Source: Lachnospiraceae bacterium
GTDB taxonomy: Bacteria; Bacillota; Clostridia; Lachnospirales; Lachnospiraceae
DNA: 64,000 nt
Direction: 5' to 3'
NCBI GenBank assembly: GCA_028693165.1
Contig: JAQUVX010000007.1
Coordinates: forward strand, 1 to 64,000
The notes below the pieces were generated by a model, which worked only from the letters and a program-made list of their open reading frames with translations, had not been told where the DNA came from and did no database searches. This document shows positions 54,191 to 63,935 of this stretch, piece by piece. Positions within the stretch are counted from its first letter, which is position 1. Each line of letters starts with the position of its first letter. The translations under genes were made by a program, and so were the position numbers.

Positions 54191-54727
54191 TTATTCTTCC
54201 ACATCCGGACTCACACTCATGGCGTCCAGCGTCAGCTTCATGATGTCCTTAATCTCATCCTCTGTCATCTTCATCTTCTCAGCAAGCTCCGGCACCGTAG
54301 CCTCGCGGCCAAGCTCCTCTGCCATCCGCCTGCAAACCTCTTTTAAAACATTGACACGAGCCAGCATCTCACCCTCGACCTGCTCCTCCAGCTTCTGCTC
54401 CTCGACCGCCGCTTTCAGCGACTCCTGAATCTGTGCCAGGGCATCCGCGTGAAACTGCTGCGCCTCCCCCTGCTCTGCAGCGAAGCGATCCACTGCCATA
54501 ATGAGAGCGATGTTCGCCTCCTGAATCAGATCACCCAGAGGAAGGCCCTGATCCTTATATGCCTTAGCCTGCTCCACAACCATGCCAAGACTTCCCTCCA
54601 AAAGACGCTTCTTCGCCTCCTGATCCCCATGAGAAATTTTCTGCAAAAGCTCCAGCTCCTCTTCCTGCGTACAGGGCGGAATCGTCTTAAGCTCTTCTAA
54701 ATACATCTGGTAAATATCATCATGCAT
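54191..54727 (-). CDS. Sigma-70-like protein lacking region 4 (178 aa)
   Basis: The N-terminal half resembles sigma-70 regions 1.2 and 2: YLEELKTIPPCTQEEELELL, then LLEGSLGMVVEQAKAYKDQG and LPLGDLIQEANIALIMAVDR. The promoter -10 recognition part (2.3-2.4) is replaced by a Gln/Glu-rich helix. The C-terminal part resembles region 3 (RRMAEELGREATVPELAEKM). Region 4 is absent. It could bind core polymerase without promoter recognition, or act as a regulator. The ATG at 54727 overlaps the luxS stop by eight bases, so the two are coupled. Confidence 0.75.
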   Translation of the reverse strand: MHDDIYQMYLEELKTIPPCTQEEELELLQKISHGDQEAKKRLLEGSLGMVVEQAKAYKDQGLPLGDLIQEANIALIMAVDRFAAEQGEAQQFHADALAQIQESLKAAVEEQKLEEQVEGEMLARVNVLKEVCRRMAEELGREATVPELAEKMKMTEDEIKDIMKLTLDAMSVSPDVEE

Positions 54728-55757: not shown

Positions 55758-56579
55758 CTACAGCAGGGTGCCCACATACCGATGCAAACTTTCAAATTCA
55801 GCGTCATAAATGGGGGAACCCTGGTATGCATCTTCTGCTTTTTCAGATACCGGACCATAGGATACATTTCCCACAACCGTATTCGTTCCTTTCAGAACCC
55901 ATGCCCCACCGGACGAGCCCTGACGCATTTTATTTCCTTTGATCTCACGGGTATTTCTTTTTGTGACACAGGAACTTCCCTCCACATATACCATTTTCTT
56001 ACCGGCATAATAGTTTTGGGGGTAGCCAAATGCTACAAGTACCTTTTCACCCACATTCTCGGTTGAACACGTCAGCGGCTCGAAAATCAAGGATTCACCG
56101 TTTAATATGGCGAATGCGTAATCCCACTTCCATTCCTTCTGCTCATGCCAATATGATTTTAGCGCAATCGTCTTGAACGTAAGTGTTTCCGTGCTTTTAC
56201 CGTCCTCATCGTAGCCGCGCTCAAACTGGAAATTATCGCATAGATGACCAGTATCTTTATCCTGAATACAATGCGCAGCCGTAAGCAAAATCTTTTTCCC
56301 GGTTACGATCTGTGCGCTGCCCACAAAGTCTTTCCCATCGCAGGAAAAAAAGAGTTTTCCACCTGCTTGAAACGGCATCTTGGAAAGATCCGCTTTCTCC
56401 GGGTCAGTGGTGGCTGGCTCTTCCTCGTTCCCATGACCCTCAAGGTCGACCTCCTGCCCTATAGGGCGAGCCGCATCTTTCCGATCCTGTGTCCAATAGT
56501 CCTTGATTTTCTGGATATTCAGCTCGTTTTCCTCATAGGTAAACGATATGTTTCCGTGTTGGTCTTTTGCTTCGATCAT
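55758..56579 (-). CDS. Trypsin-like serine protease without signal peptide (273 aa)
   Basis: Chymotrypsin-fold (S1) protease. The catalytic triad is visible: His103 in LLTAAHCIQD, Asp153 in KWDYAFAILN, and Ser223 in QGSSGGAWVL. About 70 charged residues precede the protease domain. There is no signal peptide or transmembrane segment, so the enzyme appears cytoplasmic, which is unusual for S1 proteases. AAAGGAG precedes the ATG at 56579. It is the first gene of a two-gene operon with the 121-residue protein. Substrate and role are unknown. Confidence 0.85.
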   Translation of the reverse strand: MIEAKDQHGNISFTYEENELNIQKIKDYWTQDRKDAARPIGQEVDLEGHGNEEEPATTDPEKADLSKMPFQAGGKLFFSCDGKDFVGSAQIVTGKKILLTAAHCIQDKDTGHLCDNFQFERGYDEDGKSTETLTFKTIALKSYWHEQKEWKWDYAFAILNGESLIFEPLTCSTENVGEKVLVAFGYPQNYYAGKKMVYVEGSSCVTKRNTREIKGNKMRQGSSGGAWVLKGTNTVVGNVSYGPVSEKAEDAYQGSPIYDAEFESLHRYVGTLL

Positions 56580-56689
56580 GGTTCGGTCTCCTTTCGTGCT
56601 GCAAATAGTAATTGCTTAAGTTTTAGATTTCTCACCATAAACCAATGGAATCACCTCTTTCCTGTTTCTGCGGCACGTTTCGCCTGCCG

Positions 56690-56746
56690 AACAGCTCGGT
56701 ATCAGCCGCCAGCATATCGGAGCCATGGAGCGCCCAAGCTATTGAC
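56690..56746 (+). pseudogene. Remnant of an XRE-family regulator gene
   Basis: The plus strand encodes EQLGISRQHIGAMERPSY followed by a stop, which matches the recognition helix of HTH_3 proteins. No start or upstream helix is intact. The fragment lies in the 290-base gap between the protease operon and the two-component system. Apart from it and the terminator at 56814, I see nothing in that gap. Confidence 0.45.
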
Positions 56747-56813
56747 CTTTCGGGAGTAACCACCCTATCGTCTTTATGTCATTGTAACAAACAAGGAGCA
56801 ACAAAAGCGCAAC

Positions 56814-56850
56814 AAAAAGCCCTGTTTCTTTTCAAAATCAGGGCTTTTTT
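56814..56850. terminator. Bidirectional terminator after the two-component genes
   Basis: AAAAAGCCCTG (56814-56824) and CAGGGCTTTTT (56839-56849) form a perfect stem with T runs on both strands. It ends the leftward sensor/regulator transcript. Confidence 0.85.
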
Positions 56851-56869
56851 TAAAAATAGAAACAAATGA

Positions 56870-57655
56870 TCATAAACGAGCTTCAAACATACCCATTGTA
56901 AATTCCGCCCAGCTATAATTGGGCAGGTAATCACGGCGGTAGCGGTTGATGGCCTGTGGGTCACCCTCCTGAAAGCGATAGCTGTCACAGTCCAGCCGAG
57001 TCGGGTCAATGGCAAGGCGGTTGAAGCCCTTGACCAAAACATCCTCCGCCCCTGCCAGGCGCAGGGTGGAACGCAGATCAGTGACCAGCGTGCGGAAGTA
57101 GCTTTTTTGACCTGCGTCATCTGCTGCGCCCTCCCACAGCACCGCGCAGGCTTCCCCAGTGGTAACGCTGCTTCCCCGGCGATCAATCAGATAAGCCAGC
57201 AGTTCCTTGGCTTTTGCACGCTTAAACAGCAGAGGTTTCCCATCTGAAAACACATCAAAGCCCCCAAAGGTTTGGACACGAAGCCTCCTGGTTTCACCTT
57301 GCTCCCCATAAAGGAAGGTCAGCTCCCGGCGTATATCCTCCTGCGTGGCCGGCTTCATCAGATAGCCTGTTGCATGAAGCTGAAATGCTTTCAGCGCATA
57401 CTGTTCATGGCTTGTGACAAAGATGATATGAATATCCGGCTGAATATCCTTTAGTTGCTTTGCCAGCACAAGTCCGCTGGTGCTGCCCAGCTCGATGTCG
57501 AGAAAGGCAGCATCCACCGGCGATTTCTCCGCATATTCCAAAGCCTTCTTTGGAGAGGTGAAGCCATGCAGAACAGCATCCGGTGCGGCAGCACATAAGG
57601 CTTCCTCAAGATCTTCCAGCGCAAACGGCTCATCATCCACAATAATATAATTCAT
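56870..57655 (-). CDS. Response regulator with a SARP-like winged-helix output (261 aa)
   Basis: The receiver domain has IIVDDEPFALED, the phospho-acceptor D53 in AAFLDIELGSTSG and the lysine in GYLMKPATQED. The output domain from about residue 125 reads VQTFGGFDVFSDGKPLLFKR and AKAKELLAYLIDRRGSSVTT, which is the OmpR/SARP-type DNA-binding fold seen in some Clostridia, not the LytTR domain usual with LytS-type kinases. It starts four bases after the kinase stop. Targets are unknown. Confidence 0.88.
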   Translation of the reverse strand: MNYIIVDDEPFALEDLEEALCAAAPDAVLHGFTSPKKALEYAEKSPVDAAFLDIELGSTSGLVLAKQLKDIQPDIHIIFVTSHEQYALKAFQLHATGYLMKPATQEDIRRELTFLYGEQGETRRLRVQTFGGFDVFSDGKPLLFKRAKAKELLAYLIDRRGSSVTTGEACAVLWEGAADDAGQKSYFRTLVTDLRSTLRLAGAEDVLVKGFNRLAIDPTRLDCDSYRFQEGDPQAINRYRRDYLPNYSWAEFTMGMFEARL

Positions 57656-57659
57656 GTCC

Positions 57660-58937
57660 TCACACCTCCTTGGGAATGGTAATCGTCACGGATGTCCCCC
57701 TACCCGCAGTGCTTTGAATATCCAGCGTACCTCCGCACAAGGTGGCAAGACGGCTGCGCACGTTCTCAATGCCGATATGGCTGCGCCGCTCTGTCGCTGT
57801 GTCAGCTTGAAATCCTGCCCCATCGTCCGCAACGATGACCATGTAAGCCGTGACTGTTTCCACAGTGGAAATGGTGACGGTTCCACCATTTTCCCGGCGC
57901 AGGATGCCATGGCGCACAGCATTCTCTGCAATGGGCTGAAGGGTCAGCGGCGGGAGGGCGAAATCCTGACAGACGATGTCATAAACCACTTGAAGCCGTG
58001 ATTGAAACCGCTGCTGCTCCAGTGCCAGATAGTGACGGGTATGTAAAAGCTCCTGTTCAAAGGGGATGGGCGCGCGGCTGGACAGCGAATCCATGTTGGC
58101 TCGCAGGAACAGGGAGAAGTCTGCAATCGCAGCTTTCGCCTGCTGGGGATCGTGGTCGCACAGACGGCGAATGGCAGTAAGCGAATTGTATAGAAAGTGG
58201 GGTTGGATTTGCGACAGCATGATGGCGATGCGATCCTCCGCCAGCTCCTTTTCCTGCCGCTTGATCAGCAATTCATGCTCAAATTGAATGTTGACCAGAA
58301 TAAACAGCAGGGCAAGCGCCACGCCGATGTTGACTACGGCGATTCCACGCAGAAACATTTGGGCGGCTCCACCGCCCAATGGTACAAATATGTACAGCAA
58401 AAAAAATACCACTTCTCTCCATGCCAGTCGTTTCCGATACACAATTACCAAAACCGTGAACAGGAAATAGCAGAAGGCCGGGACAACTTGGGATACCCAA
58501 AATAGTTCTCCACGCTGATAGCCACTGTCCGTCACATAAAAAACAGAGCCGGTGAAGGGACTGATGACCGCAAAGAATAGCTGTATACTGCATACGGCCA
58601 CAACGGCGGATAAGCACACTTTTTTTGCTCTGCCGGAAAGCTTCAAATACTCAAAGATATATCGGCCAAAGAAATAAAGTACAAAGGCTGATGCAGCATA
58701 AAACACGGAGGTCGACAGGGACACTGCCATTTGCATAGACGGCTGCGAGGCGTCTTGGATCAACCAGTCAGGCAAATCCCCTATAATCATAAAAAGGTTG
58801 GAAACGCAGACACCCAAAAAGTATTGGTTCAGCTTTTGCCGATACCGATGACCATCCAGAAGGTAGATGATTGGAATGACTGACAAGACAATGCCAACAA
58901 GATCAAGCGCTATATTAGCCAATACCATTTGGCTCAT
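57660..58937 (-). CDS. Sensor histidine kinase, LytS/YesM type (425 aa)
   Basis: The first about 220 residues hold seven hydrophobic segments (IALDLVGIVLSVIPIIYLLD onward). A coiled stretch (LIKRQEKELAEDRIAIMLSQ) leads to the His_kinase domain, with the phospho-histidine in QPHFLYNSLTAIRRL. The ATPase domain shows PIAENAVRHGILRREN and VADDGAGFQADTATERRSHI, then GIENVRSRLATLCGG. The ATG at 58937 is chosen with AAGGGG upstream; the frame is open to 59075. It pairs with the adjacent response regulator. The signal is unknown. Confidence 0.9.
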   Translation of the reverse strand: MSQMVLANIALDLVGIVLSVIPIIYLLDGHRYRQKLNQYFLGVCVSNLFMIIGDLPDWLIQDASQPSMQMAVSLSTSVFYAASAFVLYFFGRYIFEYLKLSGRAKKVCLSAVVAVCSIQLFFAVISPFTGSVFYVTDSGYQRGELFWVSQVVPAFCYFLFTVLVIVYRKRLAWREVVFFLLYIFVPLGGGAAQMFLRGIAVVNIGVALALLFILVNIQFEHELLIKRQEKELAEDRIAIMLSQIQPHFLYNSLTAIRRLCDHDPQQAKAAIADFSLFLRANMDSLSSRAPIPFEQELLHTRHYLALEQQRFQSRLQVVYDIVCQDFALPPLTLQPIAENAVRHGILRRENGGTVTISTVETVTAYMVIVADDGAGFQADTATERRSHIGIENVRSRLATLCGGTLDIQSTAGRGTSVTITIPKEV

Positions 58938-59078
58938 GCGGATTCCCCTTTTCTGTGTACGATCTATAAATTTATTCTCATTTAAATATATCATAATCCG
59001 GTCGGGATTTGAAGCTGCTTTTCGGCAGAGCACTGTCCTTTCTATGGGTACCAGGATATATTTTTTCTCCTGCAATAC

Positions 59079-59114: not shown

Positions 59115-59130
59115 CCCTTCACACAAGGAA

Positions 59131-59203
<73 letters not shown>

Positions 59204-59219
59204 ATGGAAATCTAGTGGC

Positions 59220-59253: not shown

Positions 59254-60189
59254 TTATTCATGAAGCCGGCGAATAATTTTAAAAATGATCGTTCCCTCCA
59301 TGACCGTCGGCGCATGGTGGGCAAAAAATACAATACCGTCCGTCGGCGAGAGAATCTGGCTGATGATCTCGCCCTCCATGGGATCGATGATTGATGCCAG
59401 CACATCTCCCCGGTGCACCTCCTGCCCCGGCTCCATGTGTCTGCGGTAAAGTCCCGGAAGGTCGTTCTTCACATTCGTCAGGTCGTCCTCGTGAATCACA
59501 CTGGCGATATAGCCGCTGTGGCTGGTGTAGCGCAGGATTCCCATGCGCGTCAGGAAACGAAGCACCGACGACACCGCCATTCGCGCTGATGGCTCATCGA
59601 TGTGGCTGGTCGCACTGGTATAGATGGAAAATGCGTTGGTGTTCCAGACCTGCCAGTTGTAATTCAGTGTTGCCGTGTCGATCGGCCGCGGTTTGCGGAT
59701 CACCACATAAGGCAGTCCGAACAGGTTTGCCAGACTCGCATTCTGAAAGCCGGTATCCATCATGCGCACATGCGGAACAAAGTCACCCGGAATATAAAAG
59801 CTCGGAAACTGAATGCCAAAACTGTAGCCCTGAATCGCCTGAAACACTCCCGCCGCGATCCGCTGGGTTGTCTCCCCTGCATGGTAGCCCGGAAACATGC
59901 GGTTGATGTCCGTGTTATCCGTCGCCCAGAAGCGTTTGCCGATATTCATGGCACTGTGATTGACGGAAGGAATGACCAGGATCTCATTGTCATGGACAAT
60001 CGCGCCCTTCTCCTCCAGCTCCTTCAGCGCCTTGACCAGCTGGGAGCAGATGTAGAGCTGCTGCACCTCGTTGCCCCGGATGGAACCGACGATGCAGGCC
60101 GCCTTGTCTCCTCTTCCGAAACGGTATCCATAGATATTCATATCATCCCGGTAATTATTCTTCAGCGTAAAGATCTTTTCTTTTCTCAT
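59254..60189 (-). CDS. AstE-like protein with lost zinc ligands (311 aa)
   Basis: Paralogue of the next gene, from the succinylglutamate desuccinylase/aspartoacylase family. In active members the metal binds to HxxE and a later His. Here the first site reads VGSIRGNEVQQLYI, with Arg in place of His. The second site reads YSFGIQFPSFYIPGDFVPHV, where the usual DxH is gone. The catalytic-Glu region also differs (NTNAFSIYTSATSHIDEPS). The fold is otherwise kept (VIPSVNHSAMNIGKRFWATD). It probably no longer hydrolyses a peptide or amide bond but could bind one or pair with its paralogue. It overlaps that gene by four bases. Confidence 0.85.
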   Translation of the reverse strand: MRKEKIFTLKNNYRDDMNIYGYRFGRGDKAACIVGSIRGNEVQQLYICSQLVKALKELEEKGAIVHDNEILVIPSVNHSAMNIGKRFWATDNTDINRMFPGYHAGETTQRIAAGVFQAIQGYSFGIQFPSFYIPGDFVPHVRMMDTGFQNASLANLFGLPYVVIRKPRPIDTATLNYNWQVWNTNAFSIYTSATSHIDEPSARMAVSSVLRFLTRMGILRYTSHSGYIASVIHEDDLTNVKNDLPGLYRRHMEPGQEVHRGDVLASIIDPMEGEIISQILSPTDGIVFFAHHAPTVMEGTIIFKIIRRLHE

Positions 60190-61139
60190 GCAAATTCACC
60201 TCCCAGCACCCTGGCGATCAGCGAACCGCAGGATACCACGGGATATTCCCGCAGGGTAAACAGCCTTCCCCCAATCGGTGCACAGACCGGCTCCTCCACG
60301 GTACCGTCTAACGGGTTTAAGATGCGGCCGATCAGCTGCCCCTTCTCCACGTTCTTCCAGTGTTCCACACAGGGGAGGAAAATCCCCGGCGCATTCGCAT
60401 TGACAAAACCCACCTCGCCATCCTCGGACACGATCGGCTTCTTTGGCTCGATTACCTCGCCGTCCCAGATTCCCAGATCCTTCATGACGCACAAGATTCC
60501 ATCCGTCAGCTGGTGGCCGTAGTGCTCCGTGATGCGCATGCCTACGCCCATCTCCACCACCACCGTCGGCACACCGATGGAGTTCATGCTGTGGGCCAAC
60601 GTCGATTCCAATACGGTCGCCGCCGCATGCACCCACACAAAATCCAGATTCAGCCGCGTGGCAAACGGAAGCAGGTTGTGCGCCACATTGACATTGACGC
60701 GCGCCTGCGGCACCTCACGCAGGAAAATATTACTGGCATGGATATCGATACACAGATCTGCCCCGGCAATATCCTGGACAATCCTGGCCGCCACATGCTC
60801 CGCCACAGACCCTTCCTCACTGCCCGGAAAGATCCGGTTCATGTCCAAATCAAACATGGGAATCCCTCTTGAGATGGAATCCACGCCCAGCGGATTCAGC
60901 GCCGGATAGATCTCCACAATGCCTTTTAAGCATTCGATCTGTTCCTGAATGATGCGGTTCAGTTCATAGCACACATACTGGCCTTCCAGCTCGTCGCCGT
61001 GCGTGCCGGTCACGATGCAGATTCTCTTTTCTGTTCCGGTCAGCTGCCGGGGCTGCAGTACATGCTTCAGCACACGCAGCTTCTCATCCACCGCAAGCCC
61101 TACCGCAGCGACCGTCTTGATGTTGTCGTCCTTCTTCAC
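60186..61139 (-). CDS. AstE/aspartoacylase-like zinc hydrolase (317 aa)
   Basis: Zn-dependent deacylase/carboxypeptidase-like enzyme of the AstE family. The zinc motif is GTHGDELEGQYVCYE (HxxE), the third ligand is in LCIDIHASN, and the catalytic glutamate is in TVVVEMGVGMRITEHYG. EIYPALNPLGVDSISRGIPM and FDLDMNRIFPGSEEG are typical of the family. Unlike its neighbour it keeps all zinc ligands. It overlaps both neighbours by four bases and belongs to the ATP-grasp/alpha-E/transglutaminase operon. Confidence 0.9.
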   Translation of the reverse strand: MKKDDNIKTVAAVGLAVDEKLRVLKHVLQPRQLTGTEKRICIVTGTHGDELEGQYVCYELNRIIQEQIECLKGIVEIYPALNPLGVDSISRGIPMFDLDMNRIFPGSEEGSVAEHVAARIVQDIAGADLCIDIHASNIFLREVPQARVNVNVAHNLLPFATRLNLDFVWVHAAATVLESTLAHSMNSIGVPTVVVEMGVGMRITEHYGHQLTDGILCVMKDLGIWDGEVIEPKKPIVSEDGEVGFVNANAPGIFLPCVEHWKNVEKGQLIGRILNPLDGTVEEPVCAPIGGRLFTLREYPVVSCGSLIARVLGGEFA

Positions 61140-61918
61140 TCTAACTCTTCCACCTTTGCATATATTTGCTGCATCTGGTATGCATAGCCCAGAAAGCAGC
61201 CCTTATCCACAGTCCCATCCACGAAATCCCGGCCATGGGTCAGCTTGATATAGGTCTCATCCACCAGAGCGTTGTGCGTCGGATCATAGCCGCGCCATGC
61301 GCCCTGATCCCACACCTCCGCCCATGCATGCGTCGCGCCCTCTCCGGGCACAAGCCCCGCCACGTAACGCGCCGGAATCCCGCCCAGACGGCAGAGACTG
61401 ATGAAAATGTGCGCGTAATCCTGACAGACACCGCAGCCTCCCGCGAAGGCTTCCGCTGCCGTCGTCCGCACACTGGTCACGCCGGGCACATAAAGAAACC
61501 GTCCGTGCAGGCGATCCATCAGGACGAGAAGTCCCTCCTGATCCGAGACCGGACGGCCAAGCTCCTGCTCCACCTCCCGCAAAAATCCGCTGATCTGTGC
61601 AGACGGCACCGTGCGGGCGGAGACAAACCGGTACATGGGGTGAAGCTGCGTATCCAAAACAGCCTTCACACACACAATTCCCTCTGCCGTCACGGTCAGC
61701 GAATCATGCGGCTGCCGGATCACACCGGCGAACCCATGATTGCCAAAACCGTCCTCCACCAGGCTCAGCGTCGTCTCCGGCCAGGTTCGGCAGAGGAAAG
61801 ACTCACAGTGCTGACCTTCCGCTTCCATCGGTTTGCAGCGGATCCGGAAATGATGGTCGCGCACAGGCCGGTCCAGCTTTAATTCCATCTCATATCGGAA
61901 CTTCAGTTTTTTCAACAA
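61136..61918 (-). CDS. Transglutaminase-like cysteine protein (260 aa)
   Basis: Transglutaminase-core protein. The catalytic cysteine lies in GGCGVCQDYAHIFISLCRLG, the histidine in EGATHAWAEVWDQGAW and the aspartate in RGYDPTHN. The N-terminal about 90 residues are a beta-rich extension typical of the bacterial transglutaminase proteins found with alpha-E and circularly permuted ATP-grasp proteins. It could hydrolyse or transfer amide bonds. It overlaps the AstE-like gene by four bases and lies 8 bases after the alpha-E gene. Confidence 0.92.
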   Translation of the reverse strand: MLKKLKFRYEMELKLDRPVRDHHFRIRCKPMEAEGQHCESFLCRTWPETTLSLVEDGFGNHGFAGVIRQPHDSLTVTAEGIVCVKAVLDTQLHPMYRFVSARTVPSAQISGFLREVEQELGRPVSDQEGLLVLMDRLHGRFLYVPGVTSVRTTAAEAFAGGCGVCQDYAHIFISLCRLGGIPARYVAGLVPGEGATHAWAEVWDQGAWRGYDPTHNALVDETYIKLTHGRDFVDGTVDKGCFLGYAYQMQQIYAKVEELE

Positions 61919-61926
61919 TGATCACC

Positions 61927-62604
61927 TCAAAAAATATTGCACAGAGCCAGGAGCGCCTCCTGATATCGGCTTCTCCAGTCGTCTCCCAGATTTATGATTT
62001 CGGATAATTTATCCACCTCTGACAGATTATACCCAATCCGGATTTTATGCAAGCGATTTAGGAATTTATTGTACTCTTTCTCAATGGATCGGTAAGGATA
62101 GCCCAGTCTCATGTAAAGATCCAGACGCTCTAAATATTTGCCGCATTTGATGATGTTGCGGCACTCTTCATCCTCCACGTTGTCGTCCAGACACCCCCAG
62201 AAAGCAAACAGATCATCCAGTACCGGCTGCAGATCATAGACCAGAGCCTGCGAATCCTCCGCGCGCTCGATGCTGTCCAGTGCCAGCTGAATATAGGAAA
62301 GCGTCTTGCTGCTCAGTTCATCCCGAAGCACCACCGCATTGTCAAAGGCGCGCAGCATGTTGCTGTAGACGGAGTTCGGATCGTTCTGTGAGAACAGATA
62401 TTTGTGAATAAAATCTTCCTGATCCTTATAACTATTCGGAATGGACAGTTCTTTGCAAAAACTCTGATAAGCCACCTCTGCATCGTCCATGTCCAGCATC
62501 CTGTCAAAATAGCGAAAAAACGAATCCAGTGTCGTAAAGACACGTTCTGCATAACGTCCCAACCAAAATAAATGATCTGATTTTTCTAACGAGATAATAC
62601 CCAT
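61927..62604 (-). CDS. Alpha-E domain protein (225 aa)
   Basis: All-alpha protein of the DUF403 (alpha-E) family: SLEKSDHLFWLGRYAERVFT at the start, then ALDSIERAEDSQALVYDLQ and YLERLDLYMRLGYPYRSIEK. These proteins are nearly always encoded beside circularly permuted ATP-grasp ligases and are proposed to assist them. The start overlaps the ATP-grasp gene by 19 bases. There is no signal peptide. Confidence 0.92.
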   Translation of the reverse strand: MGIISLEKSDHLFWLGRYAERVFTTLDSFFRYFDRMLDMDDAEVAYQSFCKELSIPNSYKDQEDFIHKYLFSQNDPNSVYSNMLRAFDNAVVLRDELSSKTLSYIQLALDSIERAEDSQALVYDLQPVLDDLFAFWGCLDDNVEDEECRNIIKCGKYLERLDLYMRLGYPYRSIEKEYNKFLNRLHKIRIGYNLSEVDKLSEIINLGDDWRSRYQEALLALCNIF

Positions 62605-63935
62605 GTGTCCTTAAAACCTCCTCCCTGAGATGAATTTACAACAAAGGAATCAGGATTACGCGAGAAGCGGGTGAGTCCGCTGGCCCACACGCGTGTCGTG
62701 TCCCCTGTCAGCACAAAGGCTCTCAAATCCGCCTTGCGCGGAACCGCTGTGTCTCCTTCCACAATATCCAGATCAATAAAGTCGATGACCTCCTGCGCGA
62801 TGAAACGGCGCGGTTCCCTGCAAATCACTTTCTTCAAATCTTCCAGTTTTTCTTTCGTCAGTTCACTGCCAAAGACAACGCCGTAGCCGCCGGCCTCCGA
62901 TACATCCTTGACCACCAGACGCTCCAGATGCTCCAGAATGAAGTTCCGGTCCTTCTCATAGAACGCCAGATAGGTTGGTGCATTCTTAAGGATCGCCTCC
63001 TCGCCCAGATAATACTTCACCATATGCGGCACAAAATAGTAGACGCCCTTGTCATCCGCCACGCCGTTGCCAGGTGCATTGACCAGCGCCACATTGCCGC
63101 TGCGGTACACATCCATGATCCCCGGAACTCCGATCAGCGAATCAGGTTCAAAGCACAGCGGATCTAAATACTCATCGGAGATGCGGCGGTACACCGTTCC
63201 CACCTGAAGCTGTCTGCCGTGATACTGGCGATAATACAGCCGGTTGTCTTCCACGAACAGATCCTGCGGCATCGCCAGGATCGCGCCGGAGCGCTCCGCC
63301 AGATAAGAATGCTCAAAGAATGCCGCATTGTAACGGCCCGGCGTCAGCACCACATTGATGCCGCCGGTATTGACCGCATCCATGACTTCCTTGAGCATGG
63401 CAGCATAATTCCGGTTGTCCACGATGTGGTTGGCGGTAAAGGTGCGCGGAGACGCCTGCCGGGTCAGCTCCCGGGCAATCATCGGATATGACGCACCGGA
63501 TGGGATGCGCAGGTTGTCCTCCAGTATGTACCACTCCCTGTCCTTCGCCTGCACCAGATCGATACCGGCAATGTGACTGAAAATGTTCTTCGGCGGCTTG
63601 ATGCCCTCGCACTGCGGCAGATATCCCTTGGAGGAGAAAATAAAATCTTCCGGGATCACACCGTCTTTGACGATCTTTTTCTCTCCATAAATGTCAGCCA
63701 GAAAGCAGTTCAGTGCTTTGACACGCTGGGTCAGCCCCCGCTCCAGAAACGCAAATTCGGCTGCCGTGATCACCCGCGCAAGCGGATCAAACGGAAAAAG
63801 CTGCTCATGAAATTCATTGTGTTTGTAAATGCCAAACTTGACCCCGTACCTTGCCATCAGCCGGTTGATTCCTTCCATGTGTTCTACCAGTTCTCTCATA
63901 GACCTTCCACATCCCCTCTTATAGATAGACAGCAT
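62586..63935 (-). CDS. Circularly permuted ATP-grasp ligase (449 aa)
   Basis: DUF404/DUF407 protein, a permuted ATP-grasp enzyme predicted to form peptide or amide bonds. Family stretches are MARYGVKFGIYKHNEFHEQL, FPFDPLARVITAAEFAFLER, ILEDNLRIPSGASYPMIAR and the C-terminal RKADLRAFVLTGDTTRVWAS then GLTRFSRNPDSFVVNSSQGG with the ATP ligands. GAGGAGG is eight bases before the ATG at 63935. It is the first gene visible of a tightly overlapped five-gene operon. The product is unknown. Confidence 0.93.
   Translation of the reverse strand: MLSIYKRGCGRSMRELVEHMEGINRLMARYGVKFGIYKHNEFHEQLFPFDPLARVITAAEFAFLERGLTQRVKALNCFLADIYGEKKIVKDGVIPEDFIFSSKGYLPQCEGIKPPKNIFSHIAGIDLVQAKDREWYILEDNLRIPSGASYPMIARELTRQASPRTFTANHIVDNRNYAAMLKEVMDAVNTGGINVVLTPGRYNAAFFEHSYLAERSGAILAMPQDLFVEDNRLYYRQYHGRQLQVGTVYRRISDEYLDPLCFEPDSLIGVPGIMDVYRSGNVALVNAPGNGVADDKGVYYFVPHMVKYYLGEEAILKNAPTYLAFYEKDRNFILEHLERLVVKDVSEAGGYGVVFGSELTKEKLEDLKKVICREPRRFIAQEVIDFIDLDIVEGDTAVPRKADLRAFVLTGDTTRVWASGLTRFSRNPDSFVVNSSQGGGFKDTWVLSR

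Follow-up and report, generated by a model that had tools for sequence, protein, structure and literature searches.

The Anbu operon comprises genes for a circularly permuted (CP) ATP-grasp protein, an Alpha-E protein, a transglutaminase-like protein (TG) and the proteasome-like hydrolase Anbu (PMC5666114 and PMC6376114, after Iyer et al. 2009). Protein tagging has been proposed as the role of the ATP-grasp/Alpha-E/TG trio, with Anbu as the deconjugating enzyme (PMC6376114), and none of the published passages drawn on here confirms what the trio does physiologically. Published data also connect it with nitrogen: in Burkholderia the trio is controlled by NtrC and is listed, for an ntrC mutant, at -8.2 (DUF404/407), -9.4 (DUF403) and, for TG, -9.4 and -6.0, as printed (PMC5491218), Pseudomonas PP_2685 and PP_2688 are upregulated on nitrate versus ammonium by log2 values of 4.44 and 3.99 (PMC8050072), and in marine metagenomes the trio is associated with urea-metabolism domains (PMC3597751). 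The AstE fold, on the other side, is found in CphZ, a cyanophycin dipeptide hydrolase (PDB titles 8ein/8eip; PMC12661447). In this article we analyze a five-gene operon of a Lachnospiraceae bacterium (contig JAQUVX010000007.1), in which the trio is followed by two proteins of the AstE/AspA type, termed AstE1 and AstE2. The operon occupies positions 59254-63935, minus strand, of the window, i.e., the whole stretch of 64,000 nucleotides that was analyzed, with which the 177 kb contig begins.

The five open reading frames (ORFs) are arranged head-to-tail in the order ATP-grasp, Alpha-E, TG, AstE1 and AstE2 (Table 1). As the initial annotation of this stretch had stated, they overlap or nearly touch: the ATP-grasp and Alpha-E genes overlap by 19 nt, Alpha-E and TG are separated by a gap of 8 nt, and the TG/AstE1 and AstE1/AstE2 overlaps measure 4 nt each. 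These junctions are conserved across loci, since 95 of the 121 ATP-grasp/Alpha-E pairs that adjoin each other keep the 19-nt overlap, and AstE1 and AstE2 overlap in 118 of 141 cases (loci found through AstE2 counted too). The annotation had also described the trio as a known association, in agreement with the same families forming part of the published Anbu operon.

In the reading that we favor, with a rough probability of 0.4, the five genes would encode a two-sided amide ligase-hydrolase cycle, with AstE2 as a partner or sensor, in a nitrogen storage or salvage setting. As its fold and conserved residues suggest, the ATP-grasp protein, with Alpha-E and TG as partners, may use ATP to form a bond between a carboxylate and either an amino acid or an amine, and AstE1, a predicted zinc acylase or iso-dipeptidase with an intact active site, would hydrolyze the resulting N-acyl-amino-acid or isopeptide bond. 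AstE2 appears to be a zinc-less, non-hydrolytic paralogue that has kept the DxNR motif, putatively for ligand binding, and a pocket in which Arg, Glu and Tyr are fixed; its co-occurrence with AstE1 and the selection acting on it suggest that it serves AstE1 as a ligand sensor or obligate partner, for which a heteromer would be the simplest form. The AstE pair would fill the hydrolase position that is held by Anbu in proteobacterial operons. By analogy with the proteobacterial trio, for which nitrogen-limitation data have been published, the likeliest setting in Clostridia would be one of limited nitrogen, in which the element is stored or salvaged. AstE-fold enzymes with substrates named in PDB titles (DoeB, CphZ) split an amino acid off its acyl or isopeptide partner, and these substrates, together with the nitrogen control of the proteobacterial trio, favor a cycle that handles a nitrogen-rich amide compound.

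Conservation was assessed in neighborhoods that were fetched around Alpha-E matches and scored with profiles built from the first set of loci; some loci in the counts are identical or near-identical sequence carrying two identifiers, and the family, order, class and phylum samples overlap in some genomes. Within the genus, 16 of 23 further genomes encode the Alpha-E protein, and the Alpha-E Pfam model finds matches in 37/299 genomes of the family sample, 23/295 of the order, 7/291 of the class and 9/348 of the phylum sample. The initial annotation had let the association stand or fall with the presence of the AstE genes beside the trio in related genomes, and they are indeed conserved there: AstE1 and AstE2 follow TG in the same order in 69 of 80 Alpha-E-anchored loci, the window included, with broken reading frames in two of the 69 (L094, L099). 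Among the remaining 11 loci, a contig end interrupts seven (L052, L069, L084, L223, L225, L226, L231), and the pair is truly absent from four, namely L076 with a short Alpha-E, and L232, L233 and L234 with a full-length Alpha-E. Where there is room for it, the pair is present in 67 of 68 loci with a short Alpha-E versus two of five (L236, L237) with a full-length one. The five-gene order is kept across families, orders and classes. In a comparison of ORFs of at least 80 aa in the limited flanks of the family-level loci, no further family is conserved beside the five genes (the best occurs in 9/53 loci, at mixed positions), and no widely conserved regulator, target gene, transporter or other catabolic gene adjoins the operon.

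The reciprocal counts start from AstE2, which exceeds 360 bits in 65 of 299 family genomes, i.e., in 36 of 37 genomes with Alpha-E versus 29 of 262 others (Fisher p 2e-27, a value uncorrected for kinship that takes two samples as one draw, all 37 Alpha-E genomes being in both). Two of the 36 genomes (G123, G161) have a contig cut at the operon and carry the strong AstE2 match on a different contig. In a phylum sample of 338 genomes, AstE2 exceeds 300 bits in six, all of them within the nine Alpha-E genomes found among the 348, and the next-best genome reaches 83.5 bits. The clostridial trio is therefore nearly always accompanied by the pair, yet the pair also occurs without the trio. The idea that the AstE pair belongs to the set thus stands insofar as the five genes form a tightly packed and conserved unit, but not in the strict sense, as the pair persists without an adjoining trio. 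A mere chance neighborhood is ruled out by the gene order kept across classes and by the co-occurrence in the phylum sample. Two further observations concern AstE2: a second copy lies off the operon contig, mostly with an adjoining AstE1-like match, in G076, G078, G084, G117, G121, G198, G229, G289 and G322, and in genome G593 the reading frame of AstE2 extends through a class I methyltransferase domain to yield a protein of 511 aa (L227:4169-5704, minus strand).

The two AstE proteins differ fundamentally in their active sites. We take the HxxE, DxNR and DxH motifs and a further Glu to be the zinc and catalytic positions, as in aspartoacylase and DoeB. AstE1 contains all of them, as is characteristic of AstE/AspA zinc acylases; in the joint alignment (n=140), H47 is found in 139, E50, D132, H134 and E196 in 140, and R102 in 136 sequences, and the relatives in the PDB are 2qj8, 3cdx and DoeB (6twm). 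AstE2, in contrast, lacks zinc ligands and the catalytic Glu. Among 148 sequences, the first zinc position is occupied by Arg (Arg38) in 146 and by His in L236 and L237, the second by Glu (Glu41) in 147, the position of the second zinc-site His by Ala, Thr or Pro in 140, and the position of the catalytic Glu by Tyr (Tyr190) in 146 and by Met in L236 and L237, while D94, N96 and R97 of the DxNR motif are retained in all 148. AstE2 nevertheless adopts the AstE/AspA fold: its AF2 model (pLDDT 89.2) retrieves 3cdx (2.9e-20, TM 0.72-0.75), CphZ 8eip (2.2e-19) and DoeB 6twm (1.5e-18) with Foldseek, the hhalign probability against AstE1 is 99.7, and AstE_AspA_cat of Pfam matches AstE2 with 41 bits and AstE1 with 79 bits. 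Judged by these residues, AstE2 is a conserved pseudoenzyme, which bears out the earlier remark that one of the two AstE proteins is apparently catalytically dead.

AstE2 is under strong purifying selection. Its dN/dS ratio (Nei-Gojobori; many dS values near saturation) amounts to 0.013-0.075 in the 10 of 12 pairs that were computable, is lower than that of AstE1 in eight of nine pairs with both values and higher in one (L054/L055), and is also low in pairs that lack the trio. AstE1 and AstE2 form groups separated by a single branch in a 41-row tree (100/99), and in L236 and L237, which stem from another family of the phylum, AstE2 has kept zinc ligands and lost the catalytic Glu. This combination suggests that the catalytic Glu was lost before the zinc ligands, and that L236 and L237 represent an apparent evolutionary intermediate.

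Catalytic residues are intact in the ATP-grasp protein and TG as well. The ATP-grasp protein matches PF14403 (CP_ATPgrasp_2) with 454 bits and PDB 3n6x at 3e-114, its motifs (glycine-rich loop, K, E-N, D-x-R) are invariant or near-invariant in 111 sequences, and with a mean pairwise identity of 0.69 (88 loci) it is the best conserved of the five proteins. Alpha-E exceeds the cut-off of PF04168 with 71 bits, but its match is confined to positions 7-164 of the 294-position profile, and it lacks the region that corresponds to the C-terminal end of the model. E20 and R21 of its ER motif are near-invariant across alignment A3, and its AF2 model (pLDDT 95.1) consists entirely of helices and finds nothing in the PDB at E<=0.001 with Foldseek (best 0.16). 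The third protein combines Bact_transglu_N with Transglut_core and keeps the triad Cys165-His197-Asp212 in 117 of 117 sequences. In two lineages Alpha-E is fused to TG (L231:7486-9024, plus strand, and L233:6561-8462, minus strand), once in the short and once in the full-length form, and therefore Alpha-E and TG probably act jointly.

Both the intact TG triad and the fusions would also suit protein tagging, where the trio adds a small tag (an amino acid or peptide) to proteins through isopeptide bonds, AstE1 removes it and AstE2 reads it. This alternative draws on the analogy with glutamylation by RimK/RimB and with the Anbu operon, for which the published proposal assigns deconjugation to Anbu (PMC6376114). 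We consider it unlikely, since small N-acyl amino acids or dipeptides are the substrates of those AstE-fold enzymes for which PDB titles name one (DoeB, CphZ), and no target gene is conserved beside the operon.

Further evidence on the ligase-hydrolase cycle comes from AstE pairs without the trio. A scan of genome contigs with a profile of the AstE2 alignment yielded at least 582 confirmed stretches, the best 80 of which were retained; from these retained loci, 30 genomes with the pair or AstE2 and no nearby trio were examined, and L114, L121, L151, L156 and L159 were left aside due to a contig end near the pair or traces of the trio. A CP ATP-grasp match exceeds the cut-off elsewhere in seven of the 30 genomes, falls below it in one, and is absent from 22. 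AstE2 lies apart from AstE1 in eight of the 30 genomes (Oscillospiraceae, Ruminococcaceae and uncultured Clostridia), all of which encode AstE1 elsewhere (372-486 bits), in two cases (G1229, G1230) about 1.7 kb after a CP ATP-grasp gene on the same contig. At one locus of this kind, L172:4901-8936 (plus strand; the others are L166, L167, L169, L171, L174, L175 and L179), AstE2 is preceded by genes for a tRNA-editing domain protein, an NYN plus OST-HTH/LOTUS protein and thymidylate synthase, and relatives of at least one of these genes are found upstream of AstE2 in the seven other AstE1-less loci.

Trio and pair were separated on several branches, with one clear loss of the trio. A tree of 140 AstE2 rows (quick method with SH-aLRT support only, midpoint root) requires nine changes of the label "trio beside it", of which starred branches force at least five, and its deepest branches are trio-bearing; for a few "alone" labels, the contig stops shortly before AstE1 on the upstream side. 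Locus L107 contains, in this order, LysR, AstE1, AstE2, a sigma-like gene, two PFK genes and a PurL-like gene, and matches to LysR, the pair, the sigma-like and the PurL-like gene recur in L108 (identities in L107 and L108: LysR 82.5 and 83.6%, PurL-like 85.6 and 85.5%, sigma-like ~54%). The LysR-AstE1 interval of L107 (6300-7070) harbors a 26-residue ATP-grasp remnant (65% identity, E 7e-10), and therefore the trio was lost in this lineage. L108 contains no significant ATP-grasp remnant, and CP ATP-grasp was not found in either genome. A mobile AstE pair was considered and rejected, because the pairs in L107 and L108 occupy the orthologous chromosomal place, where transfer is not required.

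A hydrolytic pair that outlasts the trio is also in line with catabolic nitrogen scavenging, i.e., the five genes might dismantle an environmental amide or peptide-like nitrogen source, with the ATP-grasp protein activating or recycling a fragment rather than building a product. The response of the trio to nitrogen limitation, seen in Pseudomonas (PMC8050072) and Burkholderia (PMC5491218), and its urea-domain association (PMC3597751) would fit as well. However, the ATP-grasp protein is the best conserved of the set and keeps its motifs, and neither a transporter nor another catabolic gene is conserved beside the operon, so that scavenging appears to us as doubtful as tagging.

The preferred ligase-hydrolase cycle links the substrate of AstE1 to the trio, and a hint in this direction comes from the AstE1 pocket, for which nine positions were scored (six in AstE2). 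The AstE1 pocket deviates in one of 107 trio-adjacent sequences (L094, a decaying operon) versus seven of 25 without an adjoining trio (L125, L160, L170, L173, L177, L178, L180), and in six of 18 when at least 3 kb of upstream sequence is present. Counted by genome, deviations occur in four of 17 AstE1 without a CP ATP-grasp over the cut-off and in three of five with one elsewhere (p 3e-5 for 7/25 and 1e-3 for 4/17, both uncorrected for kinship). The AstE2 pocket deviates in 0/33 sequences without the trio versus 3/107 with the trio (L224, L236, L237). The substrate of AstE1 may thus be tied to the product of the trio.

Several findings weigh against the cycle. According to the tree, the four changed AstE1 among the 17 stem from no more than two lineages, one being L125 and the other a clade of L177, L178 and L180, and three of the seven changed AstE1 come from genomes with a CP ATP-grasp elsewhere; therefore, the link between AstE1 and the trio is suggestive only. 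Moreover, the pair survives in the 22 of 30 genomes without any CP ATP-grasp match, and 13 of 17 AstE1 from genomes without one over the cut-off keep all nine pocket residues, and therefore the pair has a use that is independent of the trio. L076 (genome G315) has a trio with a short Alpha-E and no AstE pair inside 7 kb, and the best AstE1 match in this genome reaches 29 bits. The genomes G593, G1111, G1164 and G1185 combine the five genes with a proteasome-fold gene elsewhere. Finally, in the Yersinia Anbu system no specific interaction among the proteins of the operon was detected, and the ATP-grasp protein released phosphate from ATP (PMC6376114). A bolder version of the cycle would be an undescribed clostridial nitrogen-storage or isopeptide cycle, where the trio makes a small amide-linked product, the obligate AstE pair cuts and senses it, and many relatives have dropped the ligase, kept the pair and may use their neighbors' compound; we hold this version to be possible and rather unlikely.

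AstE2 could instead be an enzyme with new chemistry that employs Arg38, Glu41, Tyr190 and DxNR in place of zinc. The near-complete fixation of these residues and the dN/dS ratios that mostly lie below those of AstE1 are compatible with such an activity, but the second zinc-site His is replaced by Ala, Thr or Pro in almost all AstE2, and a sensor or structural subunit would also show a conserved pocket, which makes new chemistry improbable. Least probable is a shared location by common descent without joint function. In its favor, trio-less pairs and pair-less trios both exist, the trio-less pair at its orthologous place in L107/L108 speaks for an inherited neighborhood, and most AstE1 keep their pocket where the genome has no CP ATP-grasp match above the cut-off. 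Against it, the genes outside are unconserved between genera (best 9/53) while the five stay overlapping across classes, and changes in the AstE1 pocket are commoner away from the trio.

The surroundings of the operon were searched for further components. No widely conserved ORF of 20-100 aa that might encode a precursor peptide, as for graspetides or other ribosomally synthesized and post-translationally modified peptides, was present within 700 nt upstream on the coding strand, the intergenic gaps and the downstream side lying outside this search; the best cluster of small upstream ORFs comprises eight loci and is probably the antisense of the LysR gene. At the Rfam gathering threshold, no leader RNA was found at the operon in L019, L053, L064, L078 and L085 (positions 59254-62999 of the window lie outside this search), and the matches obtained, two tRNAs and one T-box (L053), are several kb off the operon. 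A promoter scan upstream of the operon in L019 returned three promoter-like sites versus 0.8 expected. Anbu is not among the five genes, and PF00227 has no match in the window's genome (94% complete). Among 23 genomes examined, the window's included, 15 have no proteasome-fold match and seven have one over the cut-off; these seven either lie on a contig different from that of the trio or are separated from it by hundreds of kb, and are probably HslV.

Upstream of the five-gene set lies a divergent gene that is named LysR, because its relative L107:5443-6318 (82.5% identical) has LysR domains. Among the loci scanned, eight of 14 from the same genus carry a tRNA-Ala(GGC) gene within 350 nt past AstE2 (in L056 and L063 it lies on the opposite strand), versus 0/16 others; it was therefore rejected as a part of the system and attributed to genus synteny. 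The sigma-like protein encoded next to LuxS has a ~54% identical relative 3' of AstE2 in L107 and L108. The trypsin-like peptidase and the response regulator encoded between the operon and luxS have no match among the 159 fetched loci compared, within their limited flanks.

Table 1. The five-gene operon and neighboring features in the window
Feature	Position	Strand	Evidence or remark
Gene 1: CP ATP-grasp (CP_ATPgrasp_1/2), predicted amide ligase	62586..63935	-	Pfam, PDB match, motifs
Gene 2: short Alpha-E protein, 225 aa	61927..62604	-	Pfam, AF2 model
Gene 3: TG with Bact_transglu_N	61136..61918	-	Pfam, triad residues
Gene 4: AstE1, predicted AstE/AspA-type zinc acylase/peptidase, active site intact	60186..61139	-	Pfam (79 bits), residue counts
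Gene 5: AstE2, predicted AstE/AspA-fold pseudoenzyme	59254..60189	-	Pfam (41 bits), AF2/Foldseek, residue counts
tRNA-Ala(GGC)	59130-59204	-	49 nt beyond AstE2 end
Trypsin-like peptidase, response regulator and His_kinase genes, between operon and luxS	55758-59075	-	
Sigma-like protein, 178 aa, adjoining LuxS	54191-54727	-	Pfam: sigma-70 region 3, weaker region 2 and 1.2 matches

Among the papers listed in searches of the open-access literature, to which Iyer et al. 2009 does not belong, none was recognized as combining the trio with AstE proteins. A small-molecule hydrolase in the place of Anbu makes the function of the trio testable, because substrates of the AstE fold can be screened and the ligase tried on the same compounds. 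AstE1 and AstE2 also provide a natural enzyme-pseudoenzyme system with an apparent intermediate (L236, L237).

Cyanophycin serves as nitrogen storage, and its ligase CphA is of the ATP-grasp type. The cyanophycin cycle (CphA, CphB, CphZ) resembles the clostridial operon in that a ligase is opposed by an AstE-fold iso-dipeptidase, whereas the predicted ligase described here is circularly permuted and partnered by Alpha-E and TG. With the AstE/AspA deacylases DoeB (6twm), 2qj8, 3cdx and CphZ, the pair has the fold in common, and AstE1 also shares HxxE, DxNR, DxH and the catalytic Glu; the operon differs from them by placing an enzyme-pseudoenzyme pair, with an AstE2 devoid of zinc ligands and the catalytic Glu, beside a ligase trio. 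RimK/RimB and RloABC likewise combine an ATP-grasp ligase with a peptidase, and rlo also encodes a TG-fold protein, yet in these systems the peptidase is a retropepsin-like aspartic peptidase, the TG is membrane-bound and inactive, and the ATP-grasp protein is related to RimK (PMC12239564). The Anbu operon shares three families and a hydrolase gene within the operon with the clostridial locus, which differs in harboring AstE1 and AstE2 in the place of Anbu, and an Alpha-E protein without the C-terminal part of the Pfam model.

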